A stretch of DNA of 64,000 nt from Staphylococcus piscifermentans (GTDB taxonomy: Bacteria; Bacillota; Bacilli; Staphylococcales; Staphylococcaceae). Below, piece by piece: positions 2,969-17,986 of the stretch (position 1 is the first letter of the stretch; every line of letters begins with the position of its first letter). The notes below the pieces were generated by a model. The model worked only from the letters and a program-made list of their open reading frames with translations, searched no databases and had not been told where the DNA came from. Location of the stretch: positions 124,001-188,000 of the forward strand of contig NZ_LT906447.1 in the NCBI RefSeq assembly GCF_900186985.1, given 5' to 3'. The position numbers and the translations under genes were made by a program.

Positions 2969-2979
2969 TTTTTACCACC

Positions 2980-4323
2980 TCATTTTTCCTCTTTTGAACA
3001 TAGTATAATACTGCTGCCATACCATACAAATACGATCAGCCATTCAGACGGCCATAATAATGATGAAGGCATGCCAGGCAAGTAAATTGCTATGAACGAT
3101 AAACTTAAAATAATTGCGATAACTCCTACAACTTTGCCGTTTTTAATTTTATAAGGGCGTTCTAAATCTGGAGCCGTTTTTCTTAGTTTTAAGAATGATA
3201 ATGCCACTAGGAAATATCCAATTACTACACCTATACCCCCTGCATCTACAATCCATACTAAAGCAGGGCGTCCTAATAATGGTGCTACGAAAGCTAGTAT
3301 TCCTAAGAAGATAATACCATGAGTAGGCGTTTTATATTTTGGATGAATATAAGCGAACCATTTAGGAATCATGCCGTTCTTAGCCATAGCATATAAAATT
3401 CTGCTTCCACCTATAATAAAAGCGTTCCAACTTGTAATAATACCAGCTACTCCTCCGAGAACGAGTAGTACACCGAAACCGCTGCTTCCAAATAAGTTAA
3501 CCATCGCATCAGCAGTCGCTAAATTGCTTGTTTTTAATTCTTTAGGTGTTAAGCCTGTAGCTACACCGAAGACGATTAATAAGTAGAAAAAGACAGATGC
3601 AATGATAGAAATAATCAATATTTTTCCGATTTTCTTAGAAGGGGCTTTTACCTCTTCAGCAATTTGCGGAATAACATCGAAACCAACGAACAAGAACGGA
3701 ATCATAATGAGAATGGACATTGTACCGCCGAAACCATCAACAAATAGTGGTTTCAAATTGTGGAAGTTTCCATTCACACCAGCGCCCCCAACCAGCAGAA
3801 GGCCGACTGCTACAATAAAAACTGTAAAGACTGTCTGCGTAATCGCAGCTGGTTTAATACCAAAATAGTTAAGTGATGTTAAAATGACACTGCCGATGGA
3901 TCCAATCAGTACCCAAGTTAAATAAACATCCCATCCCTGGATATTCCATAAAAATCCTGAGTGTTTGAAAGGAAGCACGTAATCAATTACTGTAGGCAGA
4001 GCCACAGCTTCAAATGTAATAACTGAGACATAACCGAATAAAACAGACCAGCCAGAAATAAAGGCAAGACCCGGTTTAAAGGCTTTTTTAACAAAGACGA
4101 AGCCACCGCCAGTTTCTGGAAATGCTGAGGCTAATTCAGCATATGTCAAACCGATAAAGATAACGAATAATCCACCAATTAGAAATGCAATGATGCTCCC
4201 TAAAAATCCTGCTGTTGAAACCCATTCTCCTGATAATACAACCCATCCCCAACCGAGCATGGCTCCGATGGCAAGAAACAAAACATCCATAATGCTCATG
4301 GATTTATTGAAATGTGATTTCAT
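2980..4323 (-). CDS. APC-family amino acid permease, probably GABA uptake
   Basis: 447-residue integral membrane protein with about 12 hydrophobic segments. The N-terminal signature IMDVLFLAIGAMLGWGWV and the ETGGGFVFVKKAF stretch are typical of APC-superfamily amino acid/amine transporters. Position between gabT and gabD suggests import of GABA or a related amine, so the role is inferred from context. It starts with ATG 29 bases after gabT. It is not obviously GabP of the B. subtilis type; another amine or amino acid substrate is possible. Confidence 0.82.
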   Translation of the reverse strand: MKSHFNKSMSIMDVLFLAIGAMLGWGWVVLSGEWVSTAGFLGSIIAFLIGGLFVIFIGLTYAELASAFPETGGGFVFVKKAFKPGLAFISGWSVLFGYVSVITFEAVALPTVIDYVLPFKHSGFLWNIQGWDVYLTWVLIGSIGSVILTSLNYFGIKPAAITQTVFTVFIVAVGLLLVGGAGVNGNFHNLKPLFVDGFGGTMSILIMIPFLFVGFDVIPQIAEEVKAPSKKIGKILIISIIASVFFYLLIVFGVATGLTPKELKTSNLATADAMVNLFGSSGFGVLLVLGGVAGIITSWNAFIIGGSRILYAMAKNGMIPKWFAYIHPKYKTPTHGIIFLGILAFVAPLLGRPALVWIVDAGGIGVVIGYFLVALSFLKLRKTAPDLERPYKIKNGKVVGVIAIILSLSFIAIYLPGMPSSLLWPSEWLIVFVWYGSSIILCSKEEK

Positions 4324-4352
4324 AACGCATACCCCATTTATTTATCTATTTT

Positions 4353-5675
4353 TTAAACGTTTGTGCTTACATTTTCTAAAATCTCCAATCCTTTATTCAG
4401 TTCTTCGTCTGTAATAACAAGTGGTGTTAAGAAACGTATAACATTGCCTTTAAGACCAGCCGAGAGCAGCAGAAGCCCATTAGCATTCGCTTGTTTTACA
4501 ATTTCTGCAGTTTTCGCTTTATCAGGCGCTCCTGTTTCAGGGTCTACGATTTCCATAGCAACCATTGCGCCAAGACGTCTAATATCTCCTATAAAGTCGA
4601 CTTTTTGTGATAATGCTTCTAGTCTATCTTGAATAACAGCACCGATATGTTCTGCTTTTTCATTAAGATTTTCTTCTTCAATAATTTCAATTACTTTTAA
4701 AGCTGCTTCACAAGCAATAGGGTTACCGCAATAAGTACCGCCCAATTCTCCCGGATTAGCACTATCCATAATTTCTGCACGACCTACAACTCCGCTAAGA
4801 GGGAAGCCGGCTGCAAGTGATTTAGAAACAGTCATCAAGTCAGGTGCTACATCAAAATGTTCCATCGCAAATGTTTTGCCAGTACGAGCAAATCCTGATT
4901 GGATTTCATCTGCTACAAATACGATATTGTGTTCATTACAAATTTCTCTGACAGCTTCTACAAATTTCTGATCTGGAATAATAAATCCACCTTCACCTTG
5001 AACAGGTTCCATTACGATACAAGCTACTGTTTCAGGATCTACAGCTGAAATAAAGAAATCTCGCAGTTGTTGAATTGTATAATCTACATATTCTTCATCG
5101 CTTAATTTGTCGGGCTTTTCTGAAAAATTAGGATAAGGAGCTTGGTAAACATCAGGTGCAAAAGGCCCGAAACCTAATTTATAAGGACGAACTTTACTTG
5201 TCATAGACATTGTTAAGTTAGTACGACCATGGAAACCGCGTACAAAGGATACAACGCCTGTTCTGCCTGTATACTTTCTGGCAATTTTGACCGCATTCTC
5301 AACGGCTTCAGCCCCAGAGTTGAGTAAAATCACTTTTTTATCAAAATCACCCGGTGTCAGATGTGCTAATTTTTCAGCTAACTGCAAGTAACTTTCATAC
5401 ATAATGACATTAAATCCTGGATGTATAAAATCTTCAACCTTCTCTTTAATATGCTCTACAATTTTAGGATGACTGTGACCTACATTCAAAGTACCGATTG
5501 CTGCAGCAAAATCAATATATTCATTGCCTTCAATATCAGTAACCGTAGCACCTTCAGCATGTTTAGCTACATTTAAATTGCCATTGCCAACCCCTCGTGC
5601 TACATAACGATTTCTTAATTCCCCATAAGTTTGGTTACTCATTTCTTTATTTGTTTGATTACCTTGCAATGTCAT
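4353..5675 (-). CDS. gabT: 4-aminobutyrate aminotransferase
   Basis: PLP-dependent class III aminotransferase moving the amino group of GABA to 2-oxoglutarate, giving succinic semialdehyde for gabD. 440 residues. Motifs seen: NSGAEAVENAVKIAR (residues 119-133), cofactor-binding Asp256 in VADEIQSGFARTG and Schiff-base Lys285 in TVSKSLAAG. First gene of the leftward operon, preceded by GGAGGGG. It is divergent from gabR, and two GTACCA repeats lie in the shared promoter region, which suggests activation by GabR. Ornithine or acetylornithine aminotransferases are related, but context favours GABA. Confidence 0.88.
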   Translation of the reverse strand: MTLQGNQTNKEMSNQTYGELRNRYVARGVGNGNLNVAKHAEGATVTDIEGNEYIDFAAAIGTLNVGHSHPKIVEHIKEKVEDFIHPGFNVIMYESYLQLAEKLAHLTPGDFDKKVILLNSGAEAVENAVKIARKYTGRTGVVSFVRGFHGRTNLTMSMTSKVRPYKLGFGPFAPDVYQAPYPNFSEKPDKLSDEEYVDYTIQQLRDFFISAVDPETVACIVMEPVQGEGGFIIPDQKFVEAVREICNEHNIVFVADEIQSGFARTGKTFAMEHFDVAPDLMTVSKSLAAGFPLSGVVGRAEIMDSANPGELGGTYCGNPIACEAALKVIEIIEEENLNEKAEHIGAVIQDRLEALSQKVDFIGDIRRLGAMVAMEIVDPETGAPDKAKTAEIVKQANANGLLLLSAGLKGNVIRFLTPLVITDEELNKGLEILENVSTNV

Positions 5676-5720
5676 AGAATCCCCTCCATTTGTTTATTAG
5701 GAGTATCATACGTTATAAAT

Positions 5721-5761
5721 TGGTACAATGAAAAGAACCAGAAATAGAAAAACAATGGTAC
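5721..5761 (-). promoter_or_regulatory. Candidate GabR operator: direct GTACCA repeats in the gabT-gabR intergenic region
   Basis: Two direct copies of TGGTAC (GTACCA on the gabT strand) at 5721-5726 and 5756-5761, start to start 35 bases. B. subtilis GabR is known to bind directly repeated ATACCA-like boxes between gabR and gabT. The proximal box lies next to a plausible gabT promoter (TTTTCA, 18 bases, TATGAT on the minus strand). Confidence 0.55.
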
Positions 5762-5776
5762 CAGAGGAGGTAAAAG

Positions 5777-7168
5777 ATGACAGATGAGCAAAATTATATA
5801 TATAGAAAAATTTACAATCAGTTGAAAAAAGATATTTTAGATCATAAATATAAAAGTCATGAAAAGCTTTTATCTAAAAGATCCTTAGCAAAAGAAATGA
5901 ATGTCAGTATTAATAGCGTAAAAACAGCTTATGAACAGTTGATCGCGGAAGGTTATATTTATACGAAAGAAAGACAAGGTTATTTTATTGAATCTTTAAA
6001 TGAATTAATTGTAGAACCCAATCATCAATCTGATGGAAAACAATTTAAAGAAAAAGTAGAGGAGAAGTCTCATTTCAAATATACTTTGTCGCATATGTCT
6101 ACAAATTTATCAGAATTTCCGATTGAGACATGGACAAAATTACAAAAACAAGTATTCAAAGAGTCACAAGCACTCTTGTCAGAAGTACCTTACTTTAAAG
6201 GACCTTTGCAATTGAGACAGTCTATAGCTAAATTAGTTTCATTTAAACGTGGTATATCTTGTGATACAGAACAGATTATTGTTGGTTCAGGGACGAATGC
6301 ACTGATTTTATACTTATTGAAATTATTCGATCAAGCCTCGTTAATCGGTATTGAAAATCCTGGTTATACGCGTATGCGACACCTTATTCAGCAGCAGAAC
6401 TTTGAAATATCCCATATTCCTTTGGACAATAAGGGAGCTTCCATACAAACTATTAAAAAGAATAATCCTCATCTTATGTTAACAACACCTTCTCATCAGT
6501 TTCCTATTGGAACTATCATGTCTATTTCTAGAAGAATCGAATTACTCAACTGGGCAACCAGTTTAGAGCATTTTATTATTGAAGATGACTACGATAGCGA
6601 ATATAAATATGGAACAGATAATATACCTTCTTTGTTTAGTTTAGATAAGAATAATAGGGTCATCTATTTAGGTACCTTTTCAAAAACACTTTTACCGGGG
6701 TTAAGAATTAGTTATATGATTTTACCAGAGCAATTAGTAGCAGATTTCGAGGCTGCATTTAAAGATTCAGTATCAGAAATCAGTACTTTAAATGCGTTAA
6801 CATTATCTAAGTTTATTGATAATGGACATTATGAGAGATATATTCGGAAAATGAGCCATTTATATGAACATAAAAGAAAAAAACTCGTGCGCATACTGAA
6901 AACGAGATTAAGTAAAAGTGTCACTATTAAAAATGTAAAAGCAGGCTTACATTTTGTGATATACGTAGATTCACCTTACACATATGAACAAGTCGAGGCA
7001 AGAGCCGAAGATTATGAACTAGAATTGTACACGCTCAATCGTTTTATGCAAGAGGATATCTCTCAACAATTCGCTCAAACTATTATTATAGGTTTTGCGA
7101 ATGTGGAAGATGAAAAAATGCATGAAACGGTGGAGGTATTAGATAAAGTATTGTTTGGAAGTGATTGA
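5777..7168 (+). CDS. gabR: MocR/GabR-type transcriptional regulator (GntR HTH fused to aminotransferase domain)
   Basis: 463-residue regulator. Residues 1-75 form a GntR winged helix (KEMNVSINSVKTAYEQL is the recognition region). Residues about 105-460 are a fold-type I aminotransferase domain with PLP lysine at position 303 in GTFSKTLLPGLR and EDDYDSEY upstream. In this family the PLP domain senses GABA together with PLP and switches the promoter. It is transcribed divergently from gabT with GTACCA repeats between them. Ribosome site GAGGAGG. It may also affect the lactonase gene 105 bases downstream, which has its own promoter and cre. Confidence 0.85.
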   Translation: MTDEQNYIYRKIYNQLKKDILDHKYKSHEKLLSKRSLAKEMNVSINSVKTAYEQLIAEGYIYTKERQGYFIESLNELIVEPNHQSDGKQFKEKVEEKSHFKYTLSHMSTNLSEFPIETWTKLQKQVFKESQALLSEVPYFKGPLQLRQSIAKLVSFKRGISCDTEQIIVGSGTNALILYLLKLFDQASLIGIENPGYTRMRHLIQQQNFEISHIPLDNKGASIQTIKKNNPHLMLTTPSHQFPIGTIMSISRRIELLNWATSLEHFIIEDDYDSEYKYGTDNIPSLFSLDKNNRVIYLGTFSKTLLPGLRISYMILPEQLVADFEAAFKDSVSEISTLNALTLSKFIDNGHYERYIRKMSHLYEHKRKKLVRILKTRLSKSVTIKNVKAGLHFVIYVDSPYTYEQVEARAEDYELELYTLNRFMQEDISQQFAQTIIIGFANVEDEKMHETVEVLDKVLFGSD

Positions 7169-7243: not shown

Positions 7244-7273
7244 GAAATTATACTCATTAAGGGAGTGGTTGAG

Positions 7274-8122
7274 ATGACAAATATAAAGAAGGATAGAATG
7301 AAGATTTATGTTTTGGACAATGGCACGATGAAGATGGACAAAAATTTAATGATTGCGAATTCAAACCAAGCCACTAGTGATAATCCTAACCAACCGAATG
7401 AAATGCATGAATTTCCTATTTATACTGTTTTTATTGATCATCCTGATGCAAAGATATTATTTGATACTGCTTGTAATCCTAATTCTATGGGAGAAGAAGG
7501 TCGATGGATTACAGCAACACAAAAAGCATTTCCATATTTTGCAGATGAATCATGTCATTTGCCAAATCGATTAGAACAACTTGGAATAGACCCAAAAGAA
7601 GTGGATATAGTAGTAGCTTCACATTTGCATTTAGACCACGCAGGGTGTTTAGAGTATTTTACAAATGCGACAATTATTGTACATGATGATGAATTGAGTG
7701 GAGCAATGAAAGGTTACGCACGTAATCAACAAGCAGGTGCCTATATATGGAGTGATATCGATGCATGGATTAAAAATGATTTAAGTTGGAAAACGATTAA
7801 ACGTGATCAAGATCATCTGAATTTAGTAGAAGGGGTAAAAGTTTTGAATTTTGGAAGTGGTCATGCTTGGGGAATGATTGGATTAGAAATCGAAACGGAA
7901 GAATTAGGCACTGTAATTTTAGCTTCTGATGCTATTTATACTAAAGATAGTATGGAGCCTACTTTAAAACCACCAGGTATTATCTATGATTCTATTGGAT
8001 GGTCTGATTCAGTAGAAAAAATCAAACAACTTGCAGATGAAAAGGATGCACAAATTTGGTTTGGTCATGATGGCGACCAATTTGCTACATTCAGAAAATC
8101 AACAGATGGTTACTATGAATAA
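7274..8122 (+). CDS. Metallo-beta-lactamase-fold lactonase (AttM/AiiA-like)
   Basis: 282-residue cytosolic dinuclear metal hydrolase. Signature HLHLDH (residues 117-122), then SGHAWG (His197), Asp219 in LASDAIY and a C-terminal GHD supply the expected ligands. Relatives open N-acyl-homoserine lactones or gamma-butyrolactone. The next gene is an alcohol dehydrogenase 13 bases away and a succinic-semialdehyde pathway lies just upstream. Hydrolysis of gamma-butyrolactone to gamma-hydroxybutyrate is therefore a better guess than quorum quenching; this is inference. ATG 7274 was chosen because GGGAG lies 8 bases before it; a GTG at 7265 overlaps that ribosome site. Confidence 0.75.
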   Translation: MTNIKKDRMKIYVLDNGTMKMDKNLMIANSNQATSDNPNQPNEMHEFPIYTVFIDHPDAKILFDTACNPNSMGEEGRWITATQKAFPYFADESCHLPNRLEQLGIDPKEVDIVVASHLHLDHAGCLEYFTNATIIVHDDELSGAMKGYARNQQAGAYIWSDIDAWIKNDLSWKTIKRDQDHLNLVEGVKVLNFGSGHAWGMIGLEIETEELGTVILASDAIYTKDSMEPTLKPPGIIYDSIGWSDSVEKIKQLADEKDAQIWFGHDGDQFATFRKSTDGYYE

Positions 8123-8135
8123 GGAGGGATGTTAG

Positions 8136-9263
8136 ATGGAAACTAAAGCCGCCGTATTATATGAAATGGGATTAAAAAGCCCGTATAAAGATTCAAAACC
8201 GCTTAAAGTTGAAACATTGCAACTAGAGTTACCTGAAAATCATGAAGTACTCATTAAAATTCATGCAGCAGGGTTATGCCATTCAGACTTATCTGTAATT
8301 AATGGGAGCAGACCAAGACCTATGCCTATGGCGTTAGGACATGAAGCAGCTGGAGAAATTATTGAAGTAGGAAACGAGGTCACACAATTTGAAGTGGGCG
8401 ACCACGTTGTATGCACGTTTATACCGAGTTGTGGTCATTGTATACCATGTAGAGAAGGACGACCAGCTTTGTGTGAAAATGGAGCAGAATCTAATGAAAA
8501 AGGAGAAATGCTCGAAGGAGGACGGCGTTTATCTAAAGAGGGCAGACCTATTAACCATCACTTAGGTGTTTCAGGTTTTTCTGATTATGCTGTCGTATCA
8601 GAGAATTCAATTGTAAAAGTAGATTCATCTATTCCTTTTGAACGAGCAGCTGTTTTTGGATGTGCGGTCATCACTGGAATAGGAGCTGTAATGAATACGG
8701 CTCAAATCAAGCCTGGAAGTAATGTAGCTATTGTTGGACTAGGAGGAATTGGTTTAAATGCAATATTAGGCGCAAAGTTAGCAGGTGCCAATGAAATTAT
8801 TGCCTTAGATATTAATGAAAATAAATTCCAATTAGCCAAAACCTTAGGTGCTACTGCTGTTTTTAATTCAGGGGATGAGAATATAGTTGAAAAGATTAAA
8901 GATTATGTAGCAGGTGGAGTTGAATACGCATTTGAAACAGCAGGAGTAGTGCCGGCAATGCAAACAGCATATGCTATTACTAAGAGAGGCGGTGCTACTG
9001 TAACAACTGGACTACCTGATCCTAAAGCACAATTTTCTTTTCCACAAGTAACTTTAGCTGCAGAAGAGCGTACAATAAAAGGGTCTTATGTTGGCAGTTG
9101 TGTTCCTGACAGAGATATACCAAGGTTTGTAAGCTTGTATCAGCAAGGAAGACTTAATATTGACCCGCTGATCAGTAAAACATTATCGTTAGATGAAATT
9201 AATGAAGGTTTTGATCAATTAGCAAGCGGAGATGTAGGACGTTTAATAATAAAAATGAACTAA
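8136..9263 (+). CDS. Zinc-dependent medium-chain alcohol dehydrogenase
   Basis: 375-residue MDR enzyme. Catalytic zinc ligands in GLCHSD and GHEAAG, four structural-zinc cysteines in CGHCIPCREGRPALC (CxxCxxC...C), and a nucleotide fold GLGGIGLNA followed by acidic ALDIN, indicating NAD(H). Length and layout resemble class III/AdhC-like enzymes. It forms a two-gene operon with the lactonase, so the substrate could be gamma-hydroxybutyrate, oxidised to succinic semialdehyde for gabD; this rests on context. Ribosome site AAGGAGGG. A terminator follows immediately. Confidence 0.78.
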   Translation: METKAAVLYEMGLKSPYKDSKPLKVETLQLELPENHEVLIKIHAAGLCHSDLSVINGSRPRPMPMALGHEAAGEIIEVGNEVTQFEVGDHVVCTFIPSCGHCIPCREGRPALCENGAESNEKGEMLEGGRRLSKEGRPINHHLGVSGFSDYAVVSENSIVKVDSSIPFERAAVFGCAVITGIGAVMNTAQIKPGSNVAIVGLGGIGLNAILGAKLAGANEIIALDINENKFQLAKTLGATAVFNSGDENIVEKIKDYVAGGVEYAFETAGVVPAMQTAYAITKRGGATVTTGLPDPKAQFSFPQVTLAAEERTIKGSYVGSCVPDRDIPRFVSLYQQGRLNIDPLISKTLSLDEINEGFDQLASGDVGRLIIKMN

Positions 9264-9348: not shown

Positions 9349-9377
9349 TTGACAATTTCTAAAGTGGAATAGATAAT
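9349..9377 (+). promoter_or_regulatory. Promoter of the eutW-eutV-like operon
   Basis: TTGACA (9349-9354), 17-base spacer, GATAAT (9372-9377): a near-consensus sigma-A promoter. Transcription would begin near 9384, only about five bases before the ATG at 9389, so that ATG has no ribosome site. Confidence 0.6.
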
Positions 9378-9436
9378 AGTATATAATTATGAATAATCAA
9401 AATATTCTAATCTCCGTACTTTGGGAATGATGCGAT

Positions 9437-10855
9437 ATAGAAAATATTCGAGAAATATGTAAACAACATACAAATTTAACTGAAGATGAAATTGAAGAAA
9501 TTGAGGAATTATCCAAACACTTACAAACGATGGCAAAGCTTAATGAAGCTAGTATTTTTATTGATTGTCCTACTGAAAATAACAAGCACATCATTGTAGT
9601 AGCAGAAGCCTCGCCGGACCAAAATAACATGTTATATCATAATTCTGTTATTAAACAAAATGCCTATGAAAGATTCGAACCAGCTGTATTCGAAGTTTTT
9701 AAAACTAAGAAAAGCGTATATCATCATAGAGGAATGTCTCAAGAAGGCAAAGTGATTGAACAAAATGTTACACCTATTATTTATAATAATCGTGTGATTG
9801 CTGCGTTGATTATGGAAAAAGATATCAGTAATCAATTGCTTGAAGAAAATAAAATGAAAGCACTGACTGAAGCAACTTATACGTTGAGTCAAATTGTATC
9901 GCATCCGAGTGAAAAACAGTTGTTTTTCTCAGATATGATTGATGAAAGTTTGTTCGATATCGATCAAGACTTGATTATCCGTTATTTTAATTTAACAGCA
10001 GAAAAGTTAGTAAAAGATATTGTCGGCATTGATTGTAAAATGGGTCTTTCCTTTGTCGACTTGTTTCCTAACATAGAAGAAATGTTGACAGACGGTAAAG
10101 TGATTACCATTAAAGAGCGAAAGCTCCAAGGTCATTACTTCCAAGTAAAGTGTATTCGATTATTTGATGATTTAGGGAATGTATCAGGACATATCATCAT
10201 GCTGCATGATATCACTGACTTAAAGGAAAAAGAGAAAGAACTTATTTCTAAATCTGTTGCGCTTCGCGAAGTGCATCACCGTGTGAAAAATAATCTTCAA
10301 ACAGTTGCAAGCTTATTAAGACTGCAAATGAGAAGAGGAATACCTGAGGAAAGCAAACATTACTTTGAAGAGAGTTTAAACAGAATACTTAGTATTGCTT
10401 CAGTTTACGAAGTGATATTAGATGGTGCGTATGCTGATCAGGTTGATATTGGGAAATTAATAATTAAAATCGGGAATATGCTTGTAAGTACTGGGAATGC
10501 GCAACATTTACATATTCATTTCGACATCCAAGAATCATTTTATCTATCATCTAATATTGCAGTTTCAGTCGCCTTGATTGCTAATGAATTGATTACAAAT
10601 TGTGTCACTCATGCTTTTAATCATCAAGAAGAAGGTCATATCGATGTTATTTTTGAAAAAAATAATAAAACGGGGAAATTAGTATTAATGGTGCAAGATG
10701 ATGGACAAGAAGAACAAGGGAATTATAAGCAATCGTTTGGACTAAATATCATAAATACAATTACTGAGAATGATTTAGAAGGACAATTTACGATTGGACG
10801 CAATCATCTCGGCACTTTGGGAAAGGTGGTATTTGATGATTGGGGGAGTCGCTAA
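9437..10855 (+). CDS. eutW: EutW-like sensor histidine kinase (start codon uncertain)
   Basis: Cytosolic sensor kinase, paired with the ANTAR regulator that follows. It carries an N-terminal sensing region, a PAS-like middle (residues about 110-230 counted from the ATG at 9530), a HisKA_2 dimerisation motif (EVHHRVKNNLQTVASLLRLQ) and an HATPase domain (NELITNCVTHAF; DDGQ). In Firmicutes EutW senses ethanolamine. The family-like N terminus ENIREICKQHTNLTEDE lies upstream of the first in-frame ATG with a ribosome-site problem (9530). The frame is closed by TGA at 9428. I place the start at ATA 9437, where relatives begin; ATG 9530 is the fallback. The symbol is by analogy. Confidence 0.72.
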   Translation: MENIREICKQHTNLTEDEIEEIEELSKHLQTMAKLNEASIFIDCPTENNKHIIVVAEASPDQNNMLYHNSVIKQNAYERFEPAVFEVFKTKKSVYHHRGMSQEGKVIEQNVTPIIYNNRVIAALIMEKDISNQLLEENKMKALTEATYTLSQIVSHPSEKQLFFSDMIDESLFDIDQDLIIRYFNLTAEKLVKDIVGIDCKMGLSFVDLFPNIEEMLTDGKVITIKERKLQGHYFQVKCIRLFDDLGNVSGHIIMLHDITDLKEKEKELISKSVALREVHHRVKNNLQTVASLLRLQMRRGIPEESKHYFEESLNRILSIASVYEVILDGAYADQVDIGKLIIKIGNMLVSTGNAQHLHIHFDIQESFYLSSNIAVSVALIANELITNCVTHAFNHQEEGHIDVIFEKNNKTGKLVLMVQDDGQEEQGNYKQSFGLNIINTITENDLEGQFTIGRNHLGTLGKVVFDDWGSR

Positions 10856-10856
10856 A

Positions 10857-11426
10857 TTGAAAAAAATTATTGTTGCTGAAGATGATTCAATTGTACGTTT
10901 AGATATCGTTGAAACGTTGAAAGAAGCAGGTTATGACGTTGCCTCTGCTGTGGGAAATGGAGAAAAAGCAATTGAACTGAATGAAACAGAAAAACCGGAT
11001 TTAATTATTATGGATATTAAGATGCCGAAGTTAAATGGCTTAAAGGCGAGTAAGATTATCAGTCAGCGACATAATGTACCCATCTTAATCGTTTCTGCAT
11101 TTAGTCAAAGCGAATATATTGAACAAGCTAAAGATGCCAATATTGTGGGATATATCATCAAACCTATTTCAGAATCTCAGTTGCTAACTGCGGTGGAAAT
11201 AGCATTGGCACAATCTGTAAAGATGTCTGCACTTAGACAAGAGTCGCATGAGGCAAAAGAAGAAGTTGAGAATCGCAAACTCATAGAAAAAGCAAAAGGT
11301 TTATTAATGACTGAAATGAAATTAGATGAAGAAGCGGCTTACCAAAAATTACGCAAACTAAGTATGAATCATCATATTTCAATGGAGAAAGTAGCCGCAA
11401 AAGTCATTAAACAGTTGACCAAATGA
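10857..11426 (+). CDS. eutV: EutV-like ANTAR-domain response regulator
   Basis: 189-residue RNA-binding antiterminator. The receiver domain (residues 1-120) has acidic pocket AEDD, phospho-acceptor Asp in LIIMDIKMPKLNG and a conserved Lys in IIKPIS. A coiled linker follows, then the ANTAR domain (about 130-189) with ENRKLIEKAKGLLMTEMKLDEEAA and Tyr at the expected place. ANTAR proteins bind hexaloop hairpins and prevent termination; two candidate targets are at 11455 and 16763. Start TTG 10857 follows GGGGGAG by 8 bases; ATG 10836, after AAAGGTGG, is also possible and would overlap eutW. Confidence 0.85.
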   Translation: MKKIIVAEDDSIVRLDIVETLKEAGYDVASAVGNGEKAIELNETEKPDLIIMDIKMPKLNGLKASKIISQRHNVPILIVSAFSQSEYIEQAKDANIVGYIIKPISESQLLTAVEIALAQSVKMSALRQESHEAKEEVENRKLIEKAKGLLMTEMKLDEEAAYQKLRKLSMNHHISMEKVAAKVIKQLTK

Positions 11427-11454
11427 TATAAATTATAAAAGTGAATAGGATACG

Positions 11455-11500
11455 AAGCAAAGATGCTTACATTGACCAAGAGGTCTGTAGGCATCTTTTT
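11455..11500 (+). promoter_or_regulatory. ANTAR-type attenuator in the eutH leader (antiterminator hairpin overlapping a terminator)
   Basis: Hairpin AAGC-AAAGAT-GCTT at 11455-11468 has a six-base loop with A at position 1 and G at position 4, the known EutV recognition rule. Its loop and 3' arm overlap the 5' arm of a terminator: AAGATGCTTAC (11460-11470) pairs with GTAGGCATCTT (11487-11497), one G-U pair, then a T tract to 11500. The two structures exclude each other. The second hairpin of the usual pair is not clear. Confidence 0.68.
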
Positions 11501-11590
11501 GCATTTTAGGAGGTGGTTTAAAAAAGTATAGCAGAGAATTGAAACAATATTATTTCTAATAAACTCAACGATTTAATGGGGGAATGCTTT

Positions 11591-12874
11591 ATGGAACACA
11601 TTGGTACAGTAATCATATATATCATCATGATTTGTGCAGTATTAGGAGCTTTCGGAGCAATCAGGAATCCTGAAGTTGGAATCGGTAAAGAATTTATGGA
11701 AGGGATATTTACAATTGGTCCTATCTTTGCTAATTCAGCAGGAATTATGGCTTCTATTCCATTTATTTCACGTTTTATTGAGCAGGTGTTCGGGCCGTTA
11801 TTTCATAAAATAGGGGCTGATCCAGCCATTGCTGCAACTTCAATATTAGCCACAGACATGGGTGGCTACCAATTGGCAAATGTTTTGAAAGAGAGTTATG
11901 AAGGATGGATTATGGCAATGATTGTAGGTTTTATGGCAGGTGCTACAATTGTATTCTCTATTCCTTTGGGATTGCCCATGTTAGAAAAAAGAGATCATAA
12001 ATATATGGCATTAGGGATATTATCTGGATTGCTAGCGATTCCTTTTGGTGTATTTATTTCTACATTTATTATGATCATGAGTCATGTAAAAATAAGAACA
12101 ACAATAGAGACAGTAGGCGCAGCTACACATGTATTTTCAATTAGTTTTTCAACAGTGTTGTTGAATTTATTGCCGTTACTCATTTTTGTTATCGTCACAG
12201 CAGCAGGTTTATACTTCTTCTCAGATATTATGATTAAAGGGTTTATTATATTTGGTAAAATATTAGATGTTTGTATCAAACTCGTCTTTGTATTTTCAGT
12301 AGTACAGATTTTTACTGGTTTTTTCACAAATGTATTTGGCGTTTGGGGATTTGACCCTATTATGGCAGATGACAAAGACAAATTCAGGGCGTTAGAAAAT
12401 GCTGGGAATATCGCAATTATGCTTTCTGGAGCTTTTCCAATGGTTTACTTAATTAGAAAATACTTTTCAAATGCATTAACTCGATTTGGACAAAAAGTAG
12501 GATTGAGTGAAGTAGGAAGTGCTGGGATTATTGCTACCATGGCTAATATTTTAGCAATGTTTAAATTAGTTAAAGATATGCCGCCTAAAGATAAAGTCAT
12601 AAATATTTCGTTTGGTGTATGTTCAGCTTTCTTGCTTGGAGACCATCTCTCTTACACTGCTAATTTCCAACCAAATTTAATCCCAGCAGTCATGATTGGT
12701 AAATTCAGCGCTGGACTTATTGCTATTGGGTTTGCTTATCTCTTATGTTTGCCTAAAGCAAGAAAATTGGAAGAAATTGATCGACGTGCAGGTATTATTA
12801 AACCTGATGAATATATCGAAGAAGAAGCAATTGAACGCGGTGAAGAGGTTCCCGAAACGAAATCTAAAATATAA
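11591..12874 (+). CDS. eutH: EutH-type ethanolamine transporter
   Basis: 427-residue membrane protein with about 10-11 hydrophobic segments. Family features include the charged GKEFMEGIFTIGPIFANSAG loop, LATDMGGYQLA, SIPLGLPMLEKRDHKY and LGDHLSYTANFQPN. EutH moves ethanolamine into the cell. Start ATG 11591 follows GGGGGA; an upstream ATG at 11576 overlaps that ribosome site and was not used. It lies downstream of the EutVW-like pair and an ANTAR attenuator. No eutABC or shell genes occur in this window, so the ammonia-lyase route is not encoded nearby. Confidence 0.85.
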   Translation: MEHIGTVIIYIIMICAVLGAFGAIRNPEVGIGKEFMEGIFTIGPIFANSAGIMASIPFISRFIEQVFGPLFHKIGADPAIAATSILATDMGGYQLANVLKESYEGWIMAMIVGFMAGATIVFSIPLGLPMLEKRDHKYMALGILSGLLAIPFGVFISTFIMIMSHVKIRTTIETVGAATHVFSISFSTVLLNLLPLLIFVIVTAAGLYFFSDIMIKGFIIFGKILDVCIKLVFVFSVVQIFTGFFTNVFGVWGFDPIMADDKDKFRALENAGNIAIMLSGAFPMVYLIRKYFSNALTRFGQKVGLSEVGSAGIIATMANILAMFKLVKDMPPKDKVINISFGVCSAFLLGDHLSYTANFQPNLIPAVMIGKFSAGLIAIGFAYLLCLPKARKLEEIDRRAGIIKPDEYIEEEAIERGEEVPETKSKI

Positions 12875-12918
12875 ATAAAATCATATACAAATCAATCTAT
12901 CAAAACTATAAAATACAT

Positions 12919-12960
12919 TAAAACAGAGCTGAAGGGAGTTGATCAGCTCTGTTTTAATTT
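12919..12960. terminator. Bidirectional terminator between eutH and the SDR gene
   Basis: AAAACAGAGCTGA pairs with TCAGCTCTGTTTT, flanked by T-rich sequence on both strands; it lies between convergent genes. Confidence 0.85.
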
Positions 12961-13011
12961 AGGGTTGTTTATTTTATTTAGGAAGGTTTTAGGAGTAATT
13001 TCAGGTTATTC

Positions 13012-13779
13012 TTAGAAATAATTGGCAGTAATACCGCCATCTACATTAATATTTGCACCATTTGTCCAATCGGATTCATCTGAAGCAAGATAGATGGCAC
13101 AATTGATAATATCTTCAGGTTTGCCGAAACGTCCTGCAGGTTGGCGGCCTAAACGGACTGCTTTGGCTTCTTCATCAGATACTAGCCATTCCATTAATAA
13201 AGGTGTTTCTATAGGACCAGGGCTGATAGCATTGGTTCTGATACCTTTCGGACGGAATTGAATGGCTAATGATTTTGTTAATGCGACCACTGCACCTTTA
13301 GATGCAGTATAGGCATCTTGAGGAACCGAGCAACCCATTTGGGCTACAAAAGAAGCGATATTAATAATTGACCCAGAAGCTTGCTTTTCCATAACTGGAA
13401 TAACATATTTTGTCATCAAGAAAATACCTTTGACATTGATATTCATCACTAAGTCCCAAACTGCTTGTTCAGTGTTGATAACAGAGTTGTCAGCTTCAGG
13501 CATTACACCTGCATTATTGTATAACACATCAATGCGGCCATATTCTTCAACAACGCCTTCTACTGCATTTTTTACAGCATCTTCATCAATAATATCGACT
13601 TCAAAGAAAGAAGCATCGCCACCATCTTGGTTGATTTGATCCACAACTTGTTTTCCTGCTTTTTGATCTCTTTCAAATACAGCGACTTTTGCACCTTCTT
13701 TAGAAAACATCTCTGCCGCGACTTTACCCATACCGCCACCGGCACCTGTTATAATGCATACTTTATCTTTTAATCTCAT
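13012..13779 (-). CDS. Short-chain dehydrogenase/reductase (SDR)
   Basis: 255-residue classical SDR. Cofactor motif TGAGGGMGK near residue 12, NNAGVMPE near 89, catalytic Ser in IINIASF and YTASK (Tyr/Lys pair) near 158-162. The Glu in VFERD after strand 2 suggests NAD(H). Third gene of a leftward operon after the aldehyde dehydrogenase and the glutamine-synthetase-like ligase, 41 bases downstream of the latter. In the proposed route it would oxidise the alcohol of gamma-glutamyl-ethanolamide to the aldehyde. This is inferred only from neighbours; similar enzymes include glucose 1-dehydrogenase-like proteins. Ribosome site AGGAGGC. Confidence 0.8.
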   Translation of the reverse strand: MRLKDKVCIITGAGGGMGKVAAEMFSKEGAKVAVFERDQKAGKQVVDQINQDGGDASFFEVDIIDEDAVKNAVEGVVEEYGRIDVLYNNAGVMPEADNSVINTEQAVWDLVMNINVKGIFLMTKYVIPVMEKQASGSIINIASFVAQMGCSVPQDAYTASKGAVVALTKSLAIQFRPKGIRTNAISPGPIETPLLMEWLVSDEEAKAVRLGRQPAGRFGKPEDIINCAIYLASDESDWTNGANINVDGGITANYF

Positions 13780-13820
13780 TTAAAAAGCCTCCTCGTATAA
13801 TAAGTTTATATTGAAAAAGA

Positions 13821-15242
13821 TTAACCTTGTTCAAAGTAACGCGCGCGTTCCCACGTAGTTACAAATGAATCGTATTCATCTTGTTCTGTTTGTGCTGCAT
13901 GTAAATAGTGTTTTGCTACTTCTTCGCCAAGCACTTCTTTCACCACATCACTGTTTTTCCATTCTAAAATTGCTTGATGAAGAGAAGATGGAATACGATC
14001 CACTTCATTTTGTTCATACGCATTACCTTTTAACTCATCAGTTAAAGTTTCTTTATGTTCAATTCCATATAAACCTGCGCCGATTAAAGCAGCATAAGCA
14101 AGATATGGATTCATGTCTGCTCCGCAAATACGGGATTCAAAGCGTAAAGCATTACCTTCACCTACAACACGATAACCAGCAGAACGGTTATCTTTGCTCC
14201 ATGCGATACTTACCGGTGCCCAACTATTTGGAGCAAAACGTTTATAAGAATTAATATTCGGAGCAAACATCAATGCAAAATCTTTCGTATATTTGATGAC
14301 ACCTGCTAAGAAATGCTGCATTGTTTCTGACATTGGATTTGCTGCATCATTACCTGCATAAAAAGCATTTTTGCCAGTATTGGTATCCATCATACTTAAA
14401 TGGATATGGCCGCTTGAGCCTGTCCACTCTTCAAAAGGTTTAGCCATGAAAGTAACAGATTTCTCATTTTGAATACAAATTTCTTTCATTCCATGTTTGA
14501 ACATTAAATGCTGATCTGCTGCATTGATTGCATCTGAATATTTTAAGTTGATTTCATGTTGTCCTTTGTAAGCTTCACCTTTAGAAGATTCAACGATAAT
14601 ATCCATCAGACTCATTTGGCGACGAATTTCTTGATAAAGCGGTTCGTTTTTTGAACCTTGCAATAAATTATAGTCTTCGTTTAAATGTCCTGCTGGTTCT
14701 AATTCATCATAGCCTTGTGCATTTATGTCTTTAAATGAATCATTAAATAAGTAGAATTCTAATTCACTGGCCATATGAGGAGATAGTCCGTAAGCTTCAG
14801 CTTTTTGGATTTGGTGTTGCAAAATATTACGCGGAGCCACGCTGATTGGTTCACTGCCATCTACTGTATATACATCTGCAAAAACCATAGCTGTACGTGA
14901 CATCCAAGGAATTACTTTTAAAGTATTCCAATCTGGCAATGCTAAATAATCACCATATCCTTTATCCCAATTCATGAAATCATAGCCATCATCTGTATCC
15001 ATTTCGAAGTTTGTACCTAAGAGATAGTTACAAAAGTGTGTGCCCTCTGAAATGTCATTTTCTAAAATGAAATCGCCTGTGATACGTTTCCCCATCAAAC
15101 GACCTTGCATATCGCAAAAACCAAGTACCAAAGTATCAATTTCACCTTTTTCAATCATTTCCATCATTTCATCTTTTGTAATGTTTCCTGTTTTCTTTTT
15201 GTTACGACGATGTTTGTTAAAATCATTAATCTCTCTAAACAT
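13821..15242 (-). CDS. Glutamine-synthetase-family gamma-glutamyl-amine ligase (PuuA/GlnA4-like)
   Basis: 473-residue ATP-dependent ligase of the GS superfamily. The N-terminal beta-grasp part contains LVLGFCDMQGRLMGKR. The catalytic part has ASELEFYLF, GQHEINL, the glutamate-site SSGHIHLSM and R(F)ESR in LRFESRICGADMNPY. There is no adenylylation loop of the housekeeping type. It sits between an aldehyde dehydrogenase and an SDR rather than next to glnR, so it is probably a catabolic gamma-glutamylpolyamine or gamma-glutamylethanolamide synthetase. The ANTAR element on the operon leader and eutH next door favour ethanolamine; putrescine remains possible. The gap to the preceding aldehyde dehydrogenase gene is 20 bases. 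Confidence 0.8.
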   Translation of the reverse strand: MFREINDFNKHRRNKKKTGNITKDEMMEMIEKGEIDTLVLGFCDMQGRLMGKRITGDFILENDISEGTHFCNYLLGTNFEMDTDDGYDFMNWDKGYGDYLALPDWNTLKVIPWMSRTAMVFADVYTVDGSEPISVAPRNILQHQIQKAEAYGLSPHMASELEFYLFNDSFKDINAQGYDELEPAGHLNEDYNLLQGSKNEPLYQEIRRQMSLMDIIVESSKGEAYKGQHEINLKYSDAINAADQHLMFKHGMKEICIQNEKSVTFMAKPFEEWTGSSGHIHLSMMDTNTGKNAFYAGNDAANPMSETMQHFLAGVIKYTKDFALMFAPNINSYKRFAPNSWAPVSIAWSKDNRSAGYRVVGEGNALRFESRICGADMNPYLAYAALIGAGLYGIEHKETLTDELKGNAYEQNEVDRIPSSLHQAILEWKNSDVVKEVLGEEVAKHYLHAAQTEQDEYDSFVTTWERARYFEQG

Positions 15243-15262
15243 TTGAACCGCCTCCTTAATAT

Positions 15263-16702
15263 TTATGCATCTAATGAAAGTGAGATATATTTTAATTCTA
15301 AGAAACCATCTAATCCATAATGACCGCCTTCACGACCCATTCCGCTTTCTTTGATACCGCCGAATGGTGCTTGAGGGACACTTAATTGAGTACCATTTAC
15401 ACCAATCATTCCGAAGTCTAATTGTTCACTGACTTGATAGACAGTATTTATATTGTTTGAGAAGAAATAGGCCGCTAAACCGTATGGAGAAGCATTTGCA
15501 ATTTTAATAGCCTCAGCTATTGTGTCGAAAGAAATAATAGGTGCTACAGGTCCGAATATTTCTTCTTTAGCAATAGACATCTCAGGTTTAACATTTGTAA
15601 CGACTGTAGGTTGATAAAATAAGTCAGAAGGTGAATCATCCACTTTTTTACCGCCTGCAGCAATATTTGCACCTTCTTTTTCAGCTTCACTTACAAGTTT
15701 TTCAACTTTTTCGATAGCTCCTGAATTAATTAATGGACCGACTTGAACATCCTTTTGATTGCCAGGACCTACTCTTAACTGGTTCACACGCTCAATGATC
15801 TTAGTTGTAAGTTCATCTCTGATTTCGTTTTGAACAAGTACCGTATTAATGCCATTGCACATCTGGCCTGTGTTTTCGAATTTGTTTTCTACAATGGCAT
15901 CTGCAGCTTGATCTAAATCTGCATCGTTAAGCACGATAGCCGGTGCGTTGCCGCCAAGTTCTAAAGAGATACGCTTCACTTGGTCAGCAGCTTTTTTCAT
16001 TAACAACTTTCCGATTTCTGTAGATCCGGTAAAAGAAATTTTACTGACACGGCGATCATGTAATAGTGTTTCAGAAATGAGTGATGACTTGCCTGTTATC
16101 AAATTTGCTACACCATTATCGATACCGGTTGTCATTAATTCATCCATAATAGCGATTGCTATGCGCGGTGTTTCACTAGACGGCTTAACGATAACCGTAC
16201 AGCCTGCTGCAAGTGCAGGTGAAACTTTTCTAGCTACCATAGCGCCTGGGAAATTCCATGGTGTGATAAGTGCGCAAACACCTACAGGTTGCTTAATAAC
16301 TGAGATGCGTTGGTTAGGGGAAGAAGGGGGGATAATCTCACCGTATATCCGTTTTCCTTCTTCTGCATTCCATTTAATGAATTGAGCGCACCCTTCAATC
16401 TCTCCTAAAGACTCGCTATAAGGCTTGCCTTGTTCTTCTGTCATGATAGAAGCGAGTTTTTCTTTTTTGTGAAGCAAATTTTCAGCCCACGCATGTAAAT
16501 AATCAGCACGTTCAGCTGCTGTTAATGCTGACCAAGAAGAGAATGCTTGGTATGAAGCATCGATTGCATCATTGATTAAAGCTTCAGTTACACTAGGCAC
16601 TTCTCCGATTACTTCGTTTGTTGCTGGATTAGTAACTTTCAAGACGTTGTCAGTTTGAATTTTCTTGCCATTAATCCAGTTATGATTCAAATTATCTCCC
16701 AT
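15263..16702 (-). CDS. NAD(P)-dependent aldehyde dehydrogenase (GabD/PuuC-like)
   Basis: 479-residue aldehyde dehydrogenase. Visible are PWNFPG near residue 148, FTGSTEIGK near 224, general base Glu248 in LELGG and nucleophile Cys282 in GQMCNG. It lacks the CxC of the gabD at 1586. It heads a three-gene operon with the GS-like ligase and SDR. The suggested substrate is the gamma-glutamyl aldehyde formed by the SDR, giving for example gamma-glutamylglycine from ethanolamine; this is context-based. It starts with ATG after AAGGAGG, about 6 bases past the leader terminator, so expression depends on the ANTAR-type attenuator. Confidence 0.83.
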   Translation of the reverse strand: MGDNLNHNWINGKKIQTDNVLKVTNPATNEVIGEVPSVTEALINDAIDASYQAFSSWSALTAAERADYLHAWAENLLHKKEKLASIMTEEQGKPYSESLGEIEGCAQFIKWNAEEGKRIYGEIIPPSSPNQRISVIKQPVGVCALITPWNFPGAMVARKVSPALAAGCTVIVKPSSETPRIAIAIMDELMTTGIDNGVANLITGKSSLISETLLHDRRVSKISFTGSTEIGKLLMKKAADQVKRISLELGGNAPAIVLNDADLDQAADAIVENKFENTGQMCNGINTVLVQNEIRDELTTKIIERVNQLRVGPGNQKDVQVGPLINSGAIEKVEKLVSEAEKEGANIAAGGKKVDDSPSDLFYQPTVVTNVKPEMSIAKEEIFGPVAPIISFDTIAEAIKIANASPYGLAAYFFSNNINTVYQVSEQLDFGMIGVNGTQLSVPQAPFGGIKESGMGREGGHYGLDGFLELKYISLSLDA

Positions 16703-16722
16703 ATAAATATCCTCCTTAACAC

Positions 16723-16776
16723 AAAAAGAGGCCTACACAATTATCCTTTACGGATATTGTATAAGCCTCTTTGCTC
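16723..16776 (-). promoter_or_regulatory. ANTAR-type attenuator in the leader of the ALDH-GS-SDR operon
   Basis: On the minus strand the hairpin GAGC-AAAGAG-GCTT (plus-strand 16763-16776) has a hexaloop with A1 and G4. It overlaps the 5' arm of a long terminator: AAAGAGGCTTATACAATATCC region (16752-16772) pairs with GGATAATTGTGTAGGCCTC (16728-16746), followed by TTTTT. The core GCAAAGANGCTTA is shared with the eutH leader, and AAGTGAAT lies upstream in both. Confidence 0.68.
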
Positions 16777-16823
16777 AATTAAATTCACTTGTATACTTCA
16801 GAAAGTCTAGTGACTTAACAACA

Positions 16824-16852
16824 ATACTACTAAATATTCAGAACCTTGTCAA
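16824..16852 (-). promoter_or_regulatory. Promoter of the ALDH-GS-SDR operon
   Basis: On the minus strand TTGACA (16847-16852), 17 bases, TAGTAT (16824-16829). A start near 16817 leaves a leader of about 115 bases that contains the attenuator. Confidence 0.65.
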
Positions 16853-16906
16853 TATTCAATCTCTAGATTATACTGTGACCTAACTTAAAAGAGAGAAGGT
16901 ATTCCT

Positions 16907-17986
16907 ATGACAAAGACATTAGATTTATTAAAATCATTAATTGAATTTGACAGTTCAACTAAAGATGCAGCGAATAAAACACTTCAATTTTGTAAAGCAT
17001 GGTTGGAACAAGAAGGGTTAGAACCAGTACGATTAACCAACGATGGATTTGATTCTCTTATTTGTAACGTAGGGGCAGGAGAAAAAAGATTAATTTTGAA
17101 TGGACATGTAGATGTTGTGAGCGGTAATCCTGATCAATTTGAACCCAAGGTTGAAGGAAATAAGATTTATGGACGTGGATCTGCTGATATGAAAGCAGGT
17201 GTAAGTGCCATGATGAGTGCTTTGAGCGAATTACAACATAAAGATTTAGGAAATACATCTGTTCAGTTGCAACTTGTAACAGATGAGGAAATTGGCGGAA
17301 AACATGGTGCTAATTTCTTAACAGAACAAGGCTATTTGGGGGATTTTGTAATCTGTGGAGAGCCTACTCAACTTGGTATTGGTTATCAAGCTAAAGGGAT
17401 CCTGCAAATTGATATTCATTTAAAAGGTAAATCAGCGCATGGCAGCCGCCCATGGGAAGGTGATAATGCTATTGAAAAAGCATTGGAAACTTATCAAAAA
17501 ATATTAGAATTACCTTTTGCTAAAGAATCTACAGCATTATTTGATGGGCCGTCTATTAACTTGGCCAAAATCAGAGGGGGAACAGTTTATAACAAAGTAC
17601 CAGATGAAGCGGTCATTTCATATGATATACGATTTTTACCTGGCCAAAATGAAGAAGAAATTTTAAAACAGATTCAAACCATAACGGATGGTGAAATTTC
17701 GGTTCATTTATCAGGTGCTTCTGTGATAAATGAAACAGATAATCCATTAATACAAAAGCTAGTCAAAGAAATTTCTGAGGAAACTCAACAACCTGCTGAA
17801 ACTATCAAATTATTTGGACAGCATGGATTTGCAGACACAAGATATTTTGCTCGATTCGGCACACCTGCTGTTGAGTTCGGTCCTTCTGGTGCAGCATGGC
17901 ATGGGGATAATGAATATGCTGAAATTAACTCTATAGAAACTTACAAAAATATATTGGTGAAATTTGCAGAGTCTTATTCAAAATAA
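16907..17986 (+). CDS. M20 family metallopeptidase (ArgE/DapE-like), copy 1
   Basis: 359-residue cytosolic zinc amidohydrolase. Motifs: NGHVDVV (His and catalytic Asp), RGSADMKAG (bridging Asp), DEEIGG (general base Glu plus metal Glu), CGEPTQ and C-terminal EFGPSGAAWHGDNE (His ligand). Relatives remove acyl groups from amino acids (acetylornithine, succinyl-DAP) or cut dipeptides. It is divergent from the ANTAR-controlled operon, so hydrolysis of a gamma-glutamyl product is conceivable. A closely similar paralogue at 48428 makes the specific annotation unsafe. Ribosome site AGAGAAGG. Confidence 0.78.
   Translation: MTKTLDLLKSLIEFDSSTKDAANKTLQFCKAWLEQEGLEPVRLTNDGFDSLICNVGAGEKRLILNGHVDVVSGNPDQFEPKVEGNKIYGRGSADMKAGVSAMMSALSELQHKDLGNTSVQLQLVTDEEIGGKHGANFLTEQGYLGDFVICGEPTQLGIGYQAKGILQIDIHLKGKSAHGSRPWEGDNAIEKALETYQKILELPFAKESTALFDGPSINLAKIRGGTVYNKVPDEAVISYDIRFLPGQNEEEILKQIQTITDGEISVHLSGASVINETDNPLIQKLVKEISEETQQPAETIKLFGQHGFADTRYFARFGTPAVEFGPSGAAWHGDNEYAEINSIETYKNILVKFAESYSK

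Follow-up and report, generated by a model that had tools for sequence, protein, structure and literature searches.

A probable cobalamin-free, microcompartment-free ethanolamine-utilisation regulon under ANTAR-type control in Staphylococcus piscifermentans

The window analysed here is a stretch of 64,000 nucleotides that corresponds to positions 124001-188000 of the one-contig 2.61-Mb genome of Staphylococcus piscifermentans. It contains a seven-gene block (9440-17986) that is a candidate for ethanolamine utilisation. Genes for a sensor histidine kinase, an ANTAR response regulator and the transporter EutH are read convergently to an operon for an aldehyde dehydrogenase (ALDH), a glutamine synthetase (GS)-like ligase and a short-chain dehydrogenase (SDR), and a gene for an M20 hydrolase diverges from that operon (Table 1). 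Pfam and NCBIfam profiles recovered the kinase, the regulator, EutH, the convergent ALDH, ligase and SDR genes and the M20 gene where a first-pass annotation, made from the sequence alone, had placed them. EutH scored 688.6 bits against the NF011668 equivalog, above its curated cut-off of 575, and its true start is likely to be 11591 rather than 11576. The inverted repeat between the two convergent gene sets is read as a bidirectional terminator.

Table 1. Genes and RNA elements of the block (window positions).
Feature	Position	Strand	Evidence
EutW-like sensor histidine kinase: GAF_PdtaS, PAS, HisKA_2, HATPase	9440..10855	+	Pfam
EutV-like response regulator: Response_reg and RNA-binding ANTAR	10857..11426	+	Pfam
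eutH-leader upstream element AAGTGAATA (P1 position)	11439..11447	+	alignment, pattern search
eutH-leader P2 hexaloop hairpin AGC[AAAGAT]GCT (A1, G4), AGCAAAGATGCT	11456..11467	+	
eutH-leader intrinsic terminator, 5' arm overlapping P2	11459..11500	+	covariation
EutH ethanolamine transporter	11576..12874	+	PF04346 390.7 bits; NF011668 equivalog
Inverted repeat with A and T runs either side, between eutH and SDR	12920..12957		by eye
SDR, proposed gamma-glutamylethanolamide dehydrogenase	13012..13779	-	PF13561
GS-like ligase, proposed gamma-glutamylethanolamide synthetase	13821..15242	-	
ALDH, proposed gamma-glutamyl-aminoacetaldehyde dehydrogenase	15263..16702	-	PF00171
Entire ANTAR-type leader of the ALDH-ligase-SDR operon, including overlapping terminator	16723..16796	-	
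ALDH-leader P2 hexaloop hairpin AGC[AAAGAG]GCT (A1, G4), AGCAAAGAGGCT	16764..16775	-	
ALDH-leader upstream element AAGTGAATT (P1 position)	16782..16790	-	alignment
M20 (ArgE/DapE-type) metallohydrolase, proposed gamma-glutamylglycine hydrolase	16907..17986	+	PF01546 and PF07687

Co-inheritance of the genes was followed in a sample of 108 genomes of the family, 84 of them of the same genus, with a ligase threshold of E ≤ 1e-60. EutH was present in 22 genomes, an ANTAR regulator above cut-off in 22 and the ligase in 21, and the 21 that belong to the genus are the same in each of the three lists. Relatives that carry the operon include S. gallinarum, S. xylosus, S. equorum, S. pseudoxylosus, S. 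shinii and S. agnetis. The order kinase-regulator-EutH / SDR-ligase-ALDH / M20 is retained in 21/21, split over two contig ends in one genome (G052), and the SDR is 80-84% identical in the 17 genomes of the genus that are not among the nearest relatives. The M20 protein of the window is 89% identical to a protein of Staphylococcus condimenti. Close homologues (at least 82% identity) of the genes that flank the block in the window occur only in the nearest relatives, apart from a lactonase and an alcohol dehydrogenase that are also found in G017. The comparison of neighbourhoods in other staphylococci that the first-pass annotation had proposed thus returned a conserved seven-gene block in unconserved surroundings. 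The ligase match of one genome (G060) carries an in-frame TAA. The 22nd genome with EutH and ANTAR, G017, belongs to another genus; its EutH is broken, and the ligase was not found in it at this threshold. At its locus (L088) kinase and regulator are still full-length and a leader still precedes the broken EutH, and the locus has the appearance of a decaying copy.

EutB was absent from all 108 family genomes, including that of the window, in a profile search with a positive Escherichia coli control, and the microcompartment shell family PF00936 had 0 matches in the window's genome. The search for eutBC in the rest of the genome that had been recommended therefore gave 0 EutB matches. The earlier statement that eutABC, cofactor and shell genes are lacking stands for EutB and the shell; EutC, EutA and the cofactor genes were not searched singly.

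The wider distribution was measured in an even draw of 398 Bacilli genomes, which are not independent of one another, with a ligase threshold of E ≤ 1e-130. The ligase was found in 28 genomes and EutB in 64, and both occurred together in 0 genomes versus 4.5 expected. The hypergeometric p value of 0.006 for this exclusivity is uncorrected for kinship and serves as a guide only. EutH was present in 67 of the 398 genomes, 46 with EutB, 7 with the ligase (all of the window's genus) and 14 with neither.

The response regulator combines receiver (REC) and ANTAR domains and adjoins a kinase with GAF_PdtaS and HisKA_2 domains, the pairing that defines EutVW-type systems, and it is the sole ANTAR match of the whole genome. 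The RNA-contact residues of EutV are given as Arg142, Lys149, Glu160, Tyr164 and Met172 in the main text of PMC8934654. The same five residues (R, K, E, Y and M) stand at equal spacing in the window regulator and in all 22 family regulators compared. Across all loci they are kept in 38 of 42 regulators, and the four misses (L151, L152, L155 and L157) are all at lyase loci. Homology to the kinase starts at about 9440 and the first ATG is at 9530; between the stop at 9428 and 9530 there is no ATG, GTG or TTG for the early part of the GAF domain. This start-less stretch is common to the window's three nearest relatives, and the gene would either start at an unusual codon or encode a GAF domain that is shortened.

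The first-pass annotation had also described matching hexaloop/terminator leaders at both targets, and both were located at the P2 positions of Table 1 with terminators that overlap P2. The 13-nucleotide consensus of EutV targets, AGCAANGRRGCUY (PMC3369931, main text), is matched in full by the ALDH leader and with one mismatch by the eutH leader. One leader before eutH and one before the ALDH gene occur in 21/21 genomes, and all share a layout in which an AAGTRNAT element is followed by AGCAANGNNGCT and then by a terminator, and the second half of the motif overlaps the 5' arm of that terminator. The AAGTRNAT element starts 14-17 nucleotides 5' of P2 in 21/21 genomes (18 in the ALDH leader of G055). 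In many leaders it can be read as an AGUGAA hexaloop closed by a single A-U pair, with no evident pairing beyond this. Taken by itself, the P2 core (GCAANGNNGC) does not exceed chance, with 8 matches in the window versus 4.25 expected. Upstream element and P2 combined match exactly twice in the 2.61-Mb genome, at these two leaders, and chance leaders were rejected on this basis. The same pattern read backward had 0 matches in the window's genome and 11 over the 108 family genomes. The leader pattern itself had 46 matches in the 108 genomes, and 42 of these are the pairs of the 21 EutH-bearing members of the genus. Of the other four, one precedes the broken EutH of G017, one is a surplus match in G053, and G058 and G066, both without EutH and ANTAR, have one each.

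Covariation was used to assess the terminators. In the aligned eutH-leader terminators 95.6% of cells are paired and 4 pairs have changes in both partners; slid controls reached at most 58.7%. The covariation score was reached by 0/500 shuffles, the count of doubly changed pairs by 10/500 and the count of further pair types by 418/500. Both sides have changed in 8 of the 14 predicted pairs of the ALDH-leader terminator. The predicted structures of P2 and terminator are a mutually exclusive design as in EutV systems.

Alignment of 37 ligase rows, the window included, identified E160, E162, E223, E230, H279, H281, R335, R358, E369 and R371 as invariant, and these are the metal, glutamate and ATP residues of the GS catalytic domain. 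The flap position six residues after the conserved Arg is Trp (W341) in all 37 rows and Glu327 in GS I, and the ligase has no ammonia-site glutamate. Trp is also found in Thermomicrobium and Phe in the three proteobacterial/actinobacterial homologues compared; the flap residue of the Streptomyces coelicolor enzyme GlnA4 is stated as F in the main text of PMC6529630. The best structural match of the ligase is Csal_0679 of Chromohalobacter, by its gene number presumably the neighbour of Csal_0678. Chromohalobacter salexigens has a demonstrated ethanolamine pathway, and Csal_0678 is described as a relative of an ethanolamine-binding protein (PMC10132767, main text).

Ligase operons outside the staphylococci were examined at 25 loci of other Bacilli, 5 from a genome collection (Fictibacillus, Scopulibacillus) and 20 of the 21 of the class draw (G453 omitted). 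Family profiles were run on representatives only, and these served as tblastn queries to name the remaining transporters and hydrolases, over at least 85% of the query length. ALDH, ligase and SDR occur together in 25/25 loci; in L141 the contig ends within the SDR gene. The transporter is an Eat-like permease in 8 loci (at least 88% of the query), a fragment of one in L128, a TIGR00907-like permease in 15 loci and none in L129. Two Eat-like representatives scored 478 and 481 bits against the TIGR00908 equivalog, with a cut-off of 381.75. The hydrolase near the operon is M20D in 6 loci, a glutamate-carboxypeptidase-like M20 in 6 and a PuuD-type C26 in 6, and none was seen in 7; 18/25 loci thus carry a hydrolase, and these belong to two unrelated superfamilies (M20 of other types and C26). 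In a lyase-type eut locus, L158 (G331), EutH and EutB share their place with a TIGR00907-like permease 83% identical to those of ligase operons. The TIGR00907-like permeases may be another family of ethanolamine transporters.

Kinase and ANTAR regulator are present in 13/25 of these loci, and a P2-plus-terminator leader occurs in 10 of the 13 (not in L103, L127 or L144). Among the 12 loci without kinase and regulator only L135 has leader matches, two that lack the upstream element. The Fictibacillus-type loci (L100, L101, L102, L104 and L126) have a leader before M20D in 5/5, before ALDH in 5/5 and before the kinase in 4/5, the last an apparent case of autoregulation. L141 and L143 have the leader in front of their TIGR00907-like permease gene. 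The strict upstream element was found in 9 of 14 Fictibacillus-type leaders and in 5/5 leaders of other loci. Outside the Bacilli, ligase, SDR and a gene named eat are consecutive in Thermomicrobium roseum, and ligase, C26-type hydrolase, ALDH and SDR are consecutive on an Arthrobacter plasmid. Ligase relatives at 38-51% identity were found in the plasmid collection, among the 40 of 172 records listed, and one on an Embleya plasmid (Streptomycetaceae, 45%) is adjoined by ALDH, SDR, C26 and an Eat-like gene (37%). The exchange of unrelated transporters and hydrolases around a constant chemistry points to ethanolamine as the substrate and to gamma-glutamyl hydrolysis as the end of the path, and is the strongest argument for both.

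The block is very probably a cobalamin-free, microcompartment-free ethanolamine-utilisation regulon, and from its genes and leaders we infer a kinase ligand, a substrate and a series of catalytic steps. The kinase would sense ethanolamine, by analogy with EutW, and phosphorylate the ANTAR regulator. The regulator would bind the leaders of eutH and of the ALDH operon and hold the P2 hexaloop, which would prevent formation of the overlapping terminator. EutH would let ethanolamine in, and the GS-like ligase would use ATP to join it to glutamate as gamma-glutamylethanolamide. Oxidation by SDR and ALDH would convert the alcohol into the corresponding acid, gamma-glutamylglycine. The divergent M20 hydrolase would probably split this product into glutamate and glycine, and the glutamate would be recycled. 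Ethanolamine glutamylation had been the earlier reading of the locus, and its sequence-testable predictions held: EutB is absent, the block is intact in 21/21 genomes, the ligase has the altered flap and the match to Csal_0679, and Eat permeases stand at related operons elsewhere.

Several observations weigh against this interpretation. In the 67 EutH-bearing Bacilli, 14 (3 of them weak matches) are without EutB and ligase at the thresholds used, and for this reason EutH alone is no proof of a ligase route. The P1 element is kept as sequence and no conserved stem is demonstrable in the leader alignments, and its G is replaced by A in 7/21 ALDH leaders (AAGTAAAT). The two representatives of the TIGR00907-like permeases, at 292 and 365 bits, fall short of that model's cut-off (598). 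The remaining three concern the last step: in staphylococci no ANTAR leader could be found in front of M20, a paralogue with 63% identity to this M20 is encoded 31 kb away (48428-49531), apart from the other block genes, and no hydrolase is nearby in 7/25 of the other Bacilli loci. The last step is the weakest of the scheme for these three reasons.

An alternative scheme leaves the upper pathway as proposed and has gamma-glutamylglycine cleaved by the paralogue or another peptidase, or excreted, instead of being hydrolyzed by this M20. It is compatible with most of the ethanolamine scheme, and the two are not exclusive. The three points on the last step count in its favor, as does the score of the M20, which is under the cut-off of every NCBIfam family among the matches listed (25 of 51), for instance 197.9 bits against 217.6 for TIGR01910. 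Three weaker M20 relatives (32-34%) are encoded elsewhere in the genome. Linkage argues the other way: M20 is at the same place in 21/21 block-bearing genomes, an M20D, glutamate-carboxypeptidase-like M20 or C26 is near the operon in 18/25 loci, and M20D is under its own ANTAR-type leader in 5/5 Fictibacillus-type loci. The finding of the paralogue slightly raised our estimate for the alternative, which we still regard as rather unlikely. The operon-side M20 is the best candidate by linkage, though not the sole one.

It is improbable that the ligase glutamylates some other amine (putrescine or a polyamine, methylamine, isopropylamine or alaninol) and that EutH imports something else or is incidental. 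GS-like ligases of the superfamily use many amines, according to the main text of PMC6529630, and a cluster that by eye resembles one for GABA use (ALDH, APC permease and aminotransferase, all on the reverse strand, with a divergent MocR-type regulator) lies at 1589-7165 of the window. However, the MocR of this cluster is present in only 3/21 neighbourhoods, the window included (20-kb stretches), and the ligase scored 207.4 bits against NF045547 (gamma-glutamylputrescine synthetase, PuuA), with a cut-off of 650. The ligase is also accompanied by ethanolamine transporters of two unrelated families and by an EutVW-like regulator. Still less probable is a glutamine synthetase, ordinary or of type III, in an operon that merely assimilates ammonia. 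The protein has the GS fold and matches TIGR00653 and TIGR03105 at E ~1e-72, but the scores of 242.7 versus 429.15 bits and 246.5 versus 469.6 bits are little over half of the curated cut-offs, the invariant flap Trp replaces Glu327, and SDR and ALDH accompany the ligase in all Bacilli loci examined. Identity as a true glutamine synthetase or as PuuA was rejected, all scores being under curated cut-offs. A complete EutBC lyase locus elsewhere that accounts for EutH is practically excluded, for although EutB is the usual partner of EutH in Bacilli, the one-contig genome has 0 matches for EutB and for the shell family, and a hidden lyase locus was rejected as far as a profile search for EutB reaches.

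The chemistry proposed for the ethanolamine regulon has precedents. The gamma-glutamyl ethanolamine route of S. coelicolor (GlnA4, SCO1611-SCO1615) is fully proposed, with its first step shown, in the main text of PMC6529630, and the route is reviewed in PMC9397018. As described in PMC6529630, it resembles the window in its GS-like ligase, SDR and ALDH, in the proposed gamma-glutamylglycine and in the lack of a microcompartment. The catalytic residues of the window ligase, compared by residue list, have the spacing of those published for GlnA4 except for insertions between E226/H274 and H276/R325. The S. coelicolor system differs in its EpuRI repressor, in a last enzyme of glutamine-amidotransferase/amidohydrolase type and, so far as its main text goes, in that no EutH or Eat is reported; the window has ANTAR-type leaders, EutH, M20 and W rather than F in the flap. 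Ethanolamine glutamylation is also described for Phaeobacter, and the main text of PMC10132767 gives the loci of C. salexigens and Phaeobacter sp. MED193 a TRAP transporter, EtoVWX, and other regulators. A Paracoccus relative of these loci has an iron-containing dehydrogenase, not an SDR. The Puu putrescine pathway (PuuA-PuuB-PuuC-PuuD) likewise comprises a ligase, a two-step oxidation and gamma-glutamyl hydrolysis. The window differs from it in having an SDR in place of the FAD oxidase, M20 in place of C26 and a ligase far under the PuuA cut-off.

Control of lyase loci by EutVW is known from PMC3369931 and PMC8934654. The eut system of Enterococcus faecalis, as their main texts present it, shares with the window a kinase and REC-ANTAR regulator, a P2 of AGCAANGRRGCUY type that overlaps a terminator, and the conserved contact residues. 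The eut system controls EutBC and shell genes, whereas the ligase route is controlled in the window. A second difference is that no AdoCbl riboswitch was seen in the window, as Rfam gave no match at gathering thresholds, a result that says nothing about ANTAR RNAs. A third is that P1 in the staphylococcal leaders is a conserved AAGUGAAU with an unproven stem. The main text of PMC8934654 gives no E. faecalis P1 sequences.

The origins of the switch and of the enzymes were compared in two trees. Rows that were almost identical to others had been removed, 7 of 42 from the kinase+regulator tree (35 rows left) and those of 10 named loci from the ligase+SDR tree. In the first, the staphylococci fall together with the lyase loci G320 and G221 (support 100/99), and not with the ligase loci of Fictibacillus and Scopulibacillus. 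A constraint that joins the staphylococci to the latter was rejected (p 0.008, a test named after the tree had been seen), as was a single clade of all ligase loci (p 2.6e-6). In the ligase+SDR tree, made by a quick method, the staphylococci join Fictibacillus and Scopulibacillus (SH-aLRT 100). The lyase locus of G320 has the same kinase-regulator-leader-EutH order, its EutH is 66% identical to that of the window, and ACAAGTGAATA...AAGCACAGGCGCTTA lies between its regulator and EutH. The groupings together with the order, EutH and leader of G320 fit a chimera, in which kinase, regulator, leader and EutH would derive from a lyase-type eut locus and the enzymes from a Fictibacillus-like ligase operon. 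The chances for and against this chimera are evenly balanced, because the kinase+regulator tree holds only seven lyase loci, the trees carry long-branch warnings, including for G320 with G221, and the regulator of G221 is among the four lyase-locus regulators in which the contact residues were not found. A broader proposal is just as open to doubt as to belief: ethanolamine use in Firmicutes may be modular, with one EutVW-type switch and leader re-wired between two chemistries that are unrelated, the B12-dependent lyase/microcompartment one and the ATP-dependent gamma-glutamyl one, the staphylococcal block being a chimera, perhaps with a stemless P1 conserved in sequence.

A lactonase of AhlS type (N-acyl homoserine lactonase; NF047976, 542 bits versus a cut-off of 475) and a zinc alcohol dehydrogenase are encoded in that order at 7265-9263, 5' of the kinase gene. 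G038 and G017, the latter of another genus, likewise have this pair ahead of their kinase genes.

Searches of the open-licence literature by title and start of abstract found no paper that joins EutH or ANTAR to this ligase. The main text of the covariance survey in PMC3369931 leaves staphylococci unmentioned. In that of the actinobacterial ANTAR survey PMC8164766, glutamine synthetase appears nowhere, and ethanolamine occurs only in the title of a reference. In the main text of PMC11688363, on urine metabolomics of uropathogens including S. saprophyticus, ethanolamine is mentioned outside the references for E. coli only. The coupling of a gamma-glutamyl route to EutVW-type antitermination and EutH in Firmicutes looks new, as do the trees suggesting a regulator akin to those of lyase-type eut loci and enzymes akin to Fictibacillus ligase operons.

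If correct, the ethanolamine regulon would explain the presence of EutH and EutVW-like genes in staphylococci without EutB. Its two leader sites would make it a clean system for the ligand of the ANTAR kinase and for the requirements of P1, and it would indicate how one sensory switch may persist while a different pathway is placed under it. Ethanolamine is a breakdown product of cell membranes, and through the regulon these species would have a nitrogen source derived from membrane lipids that does not depend on B12.

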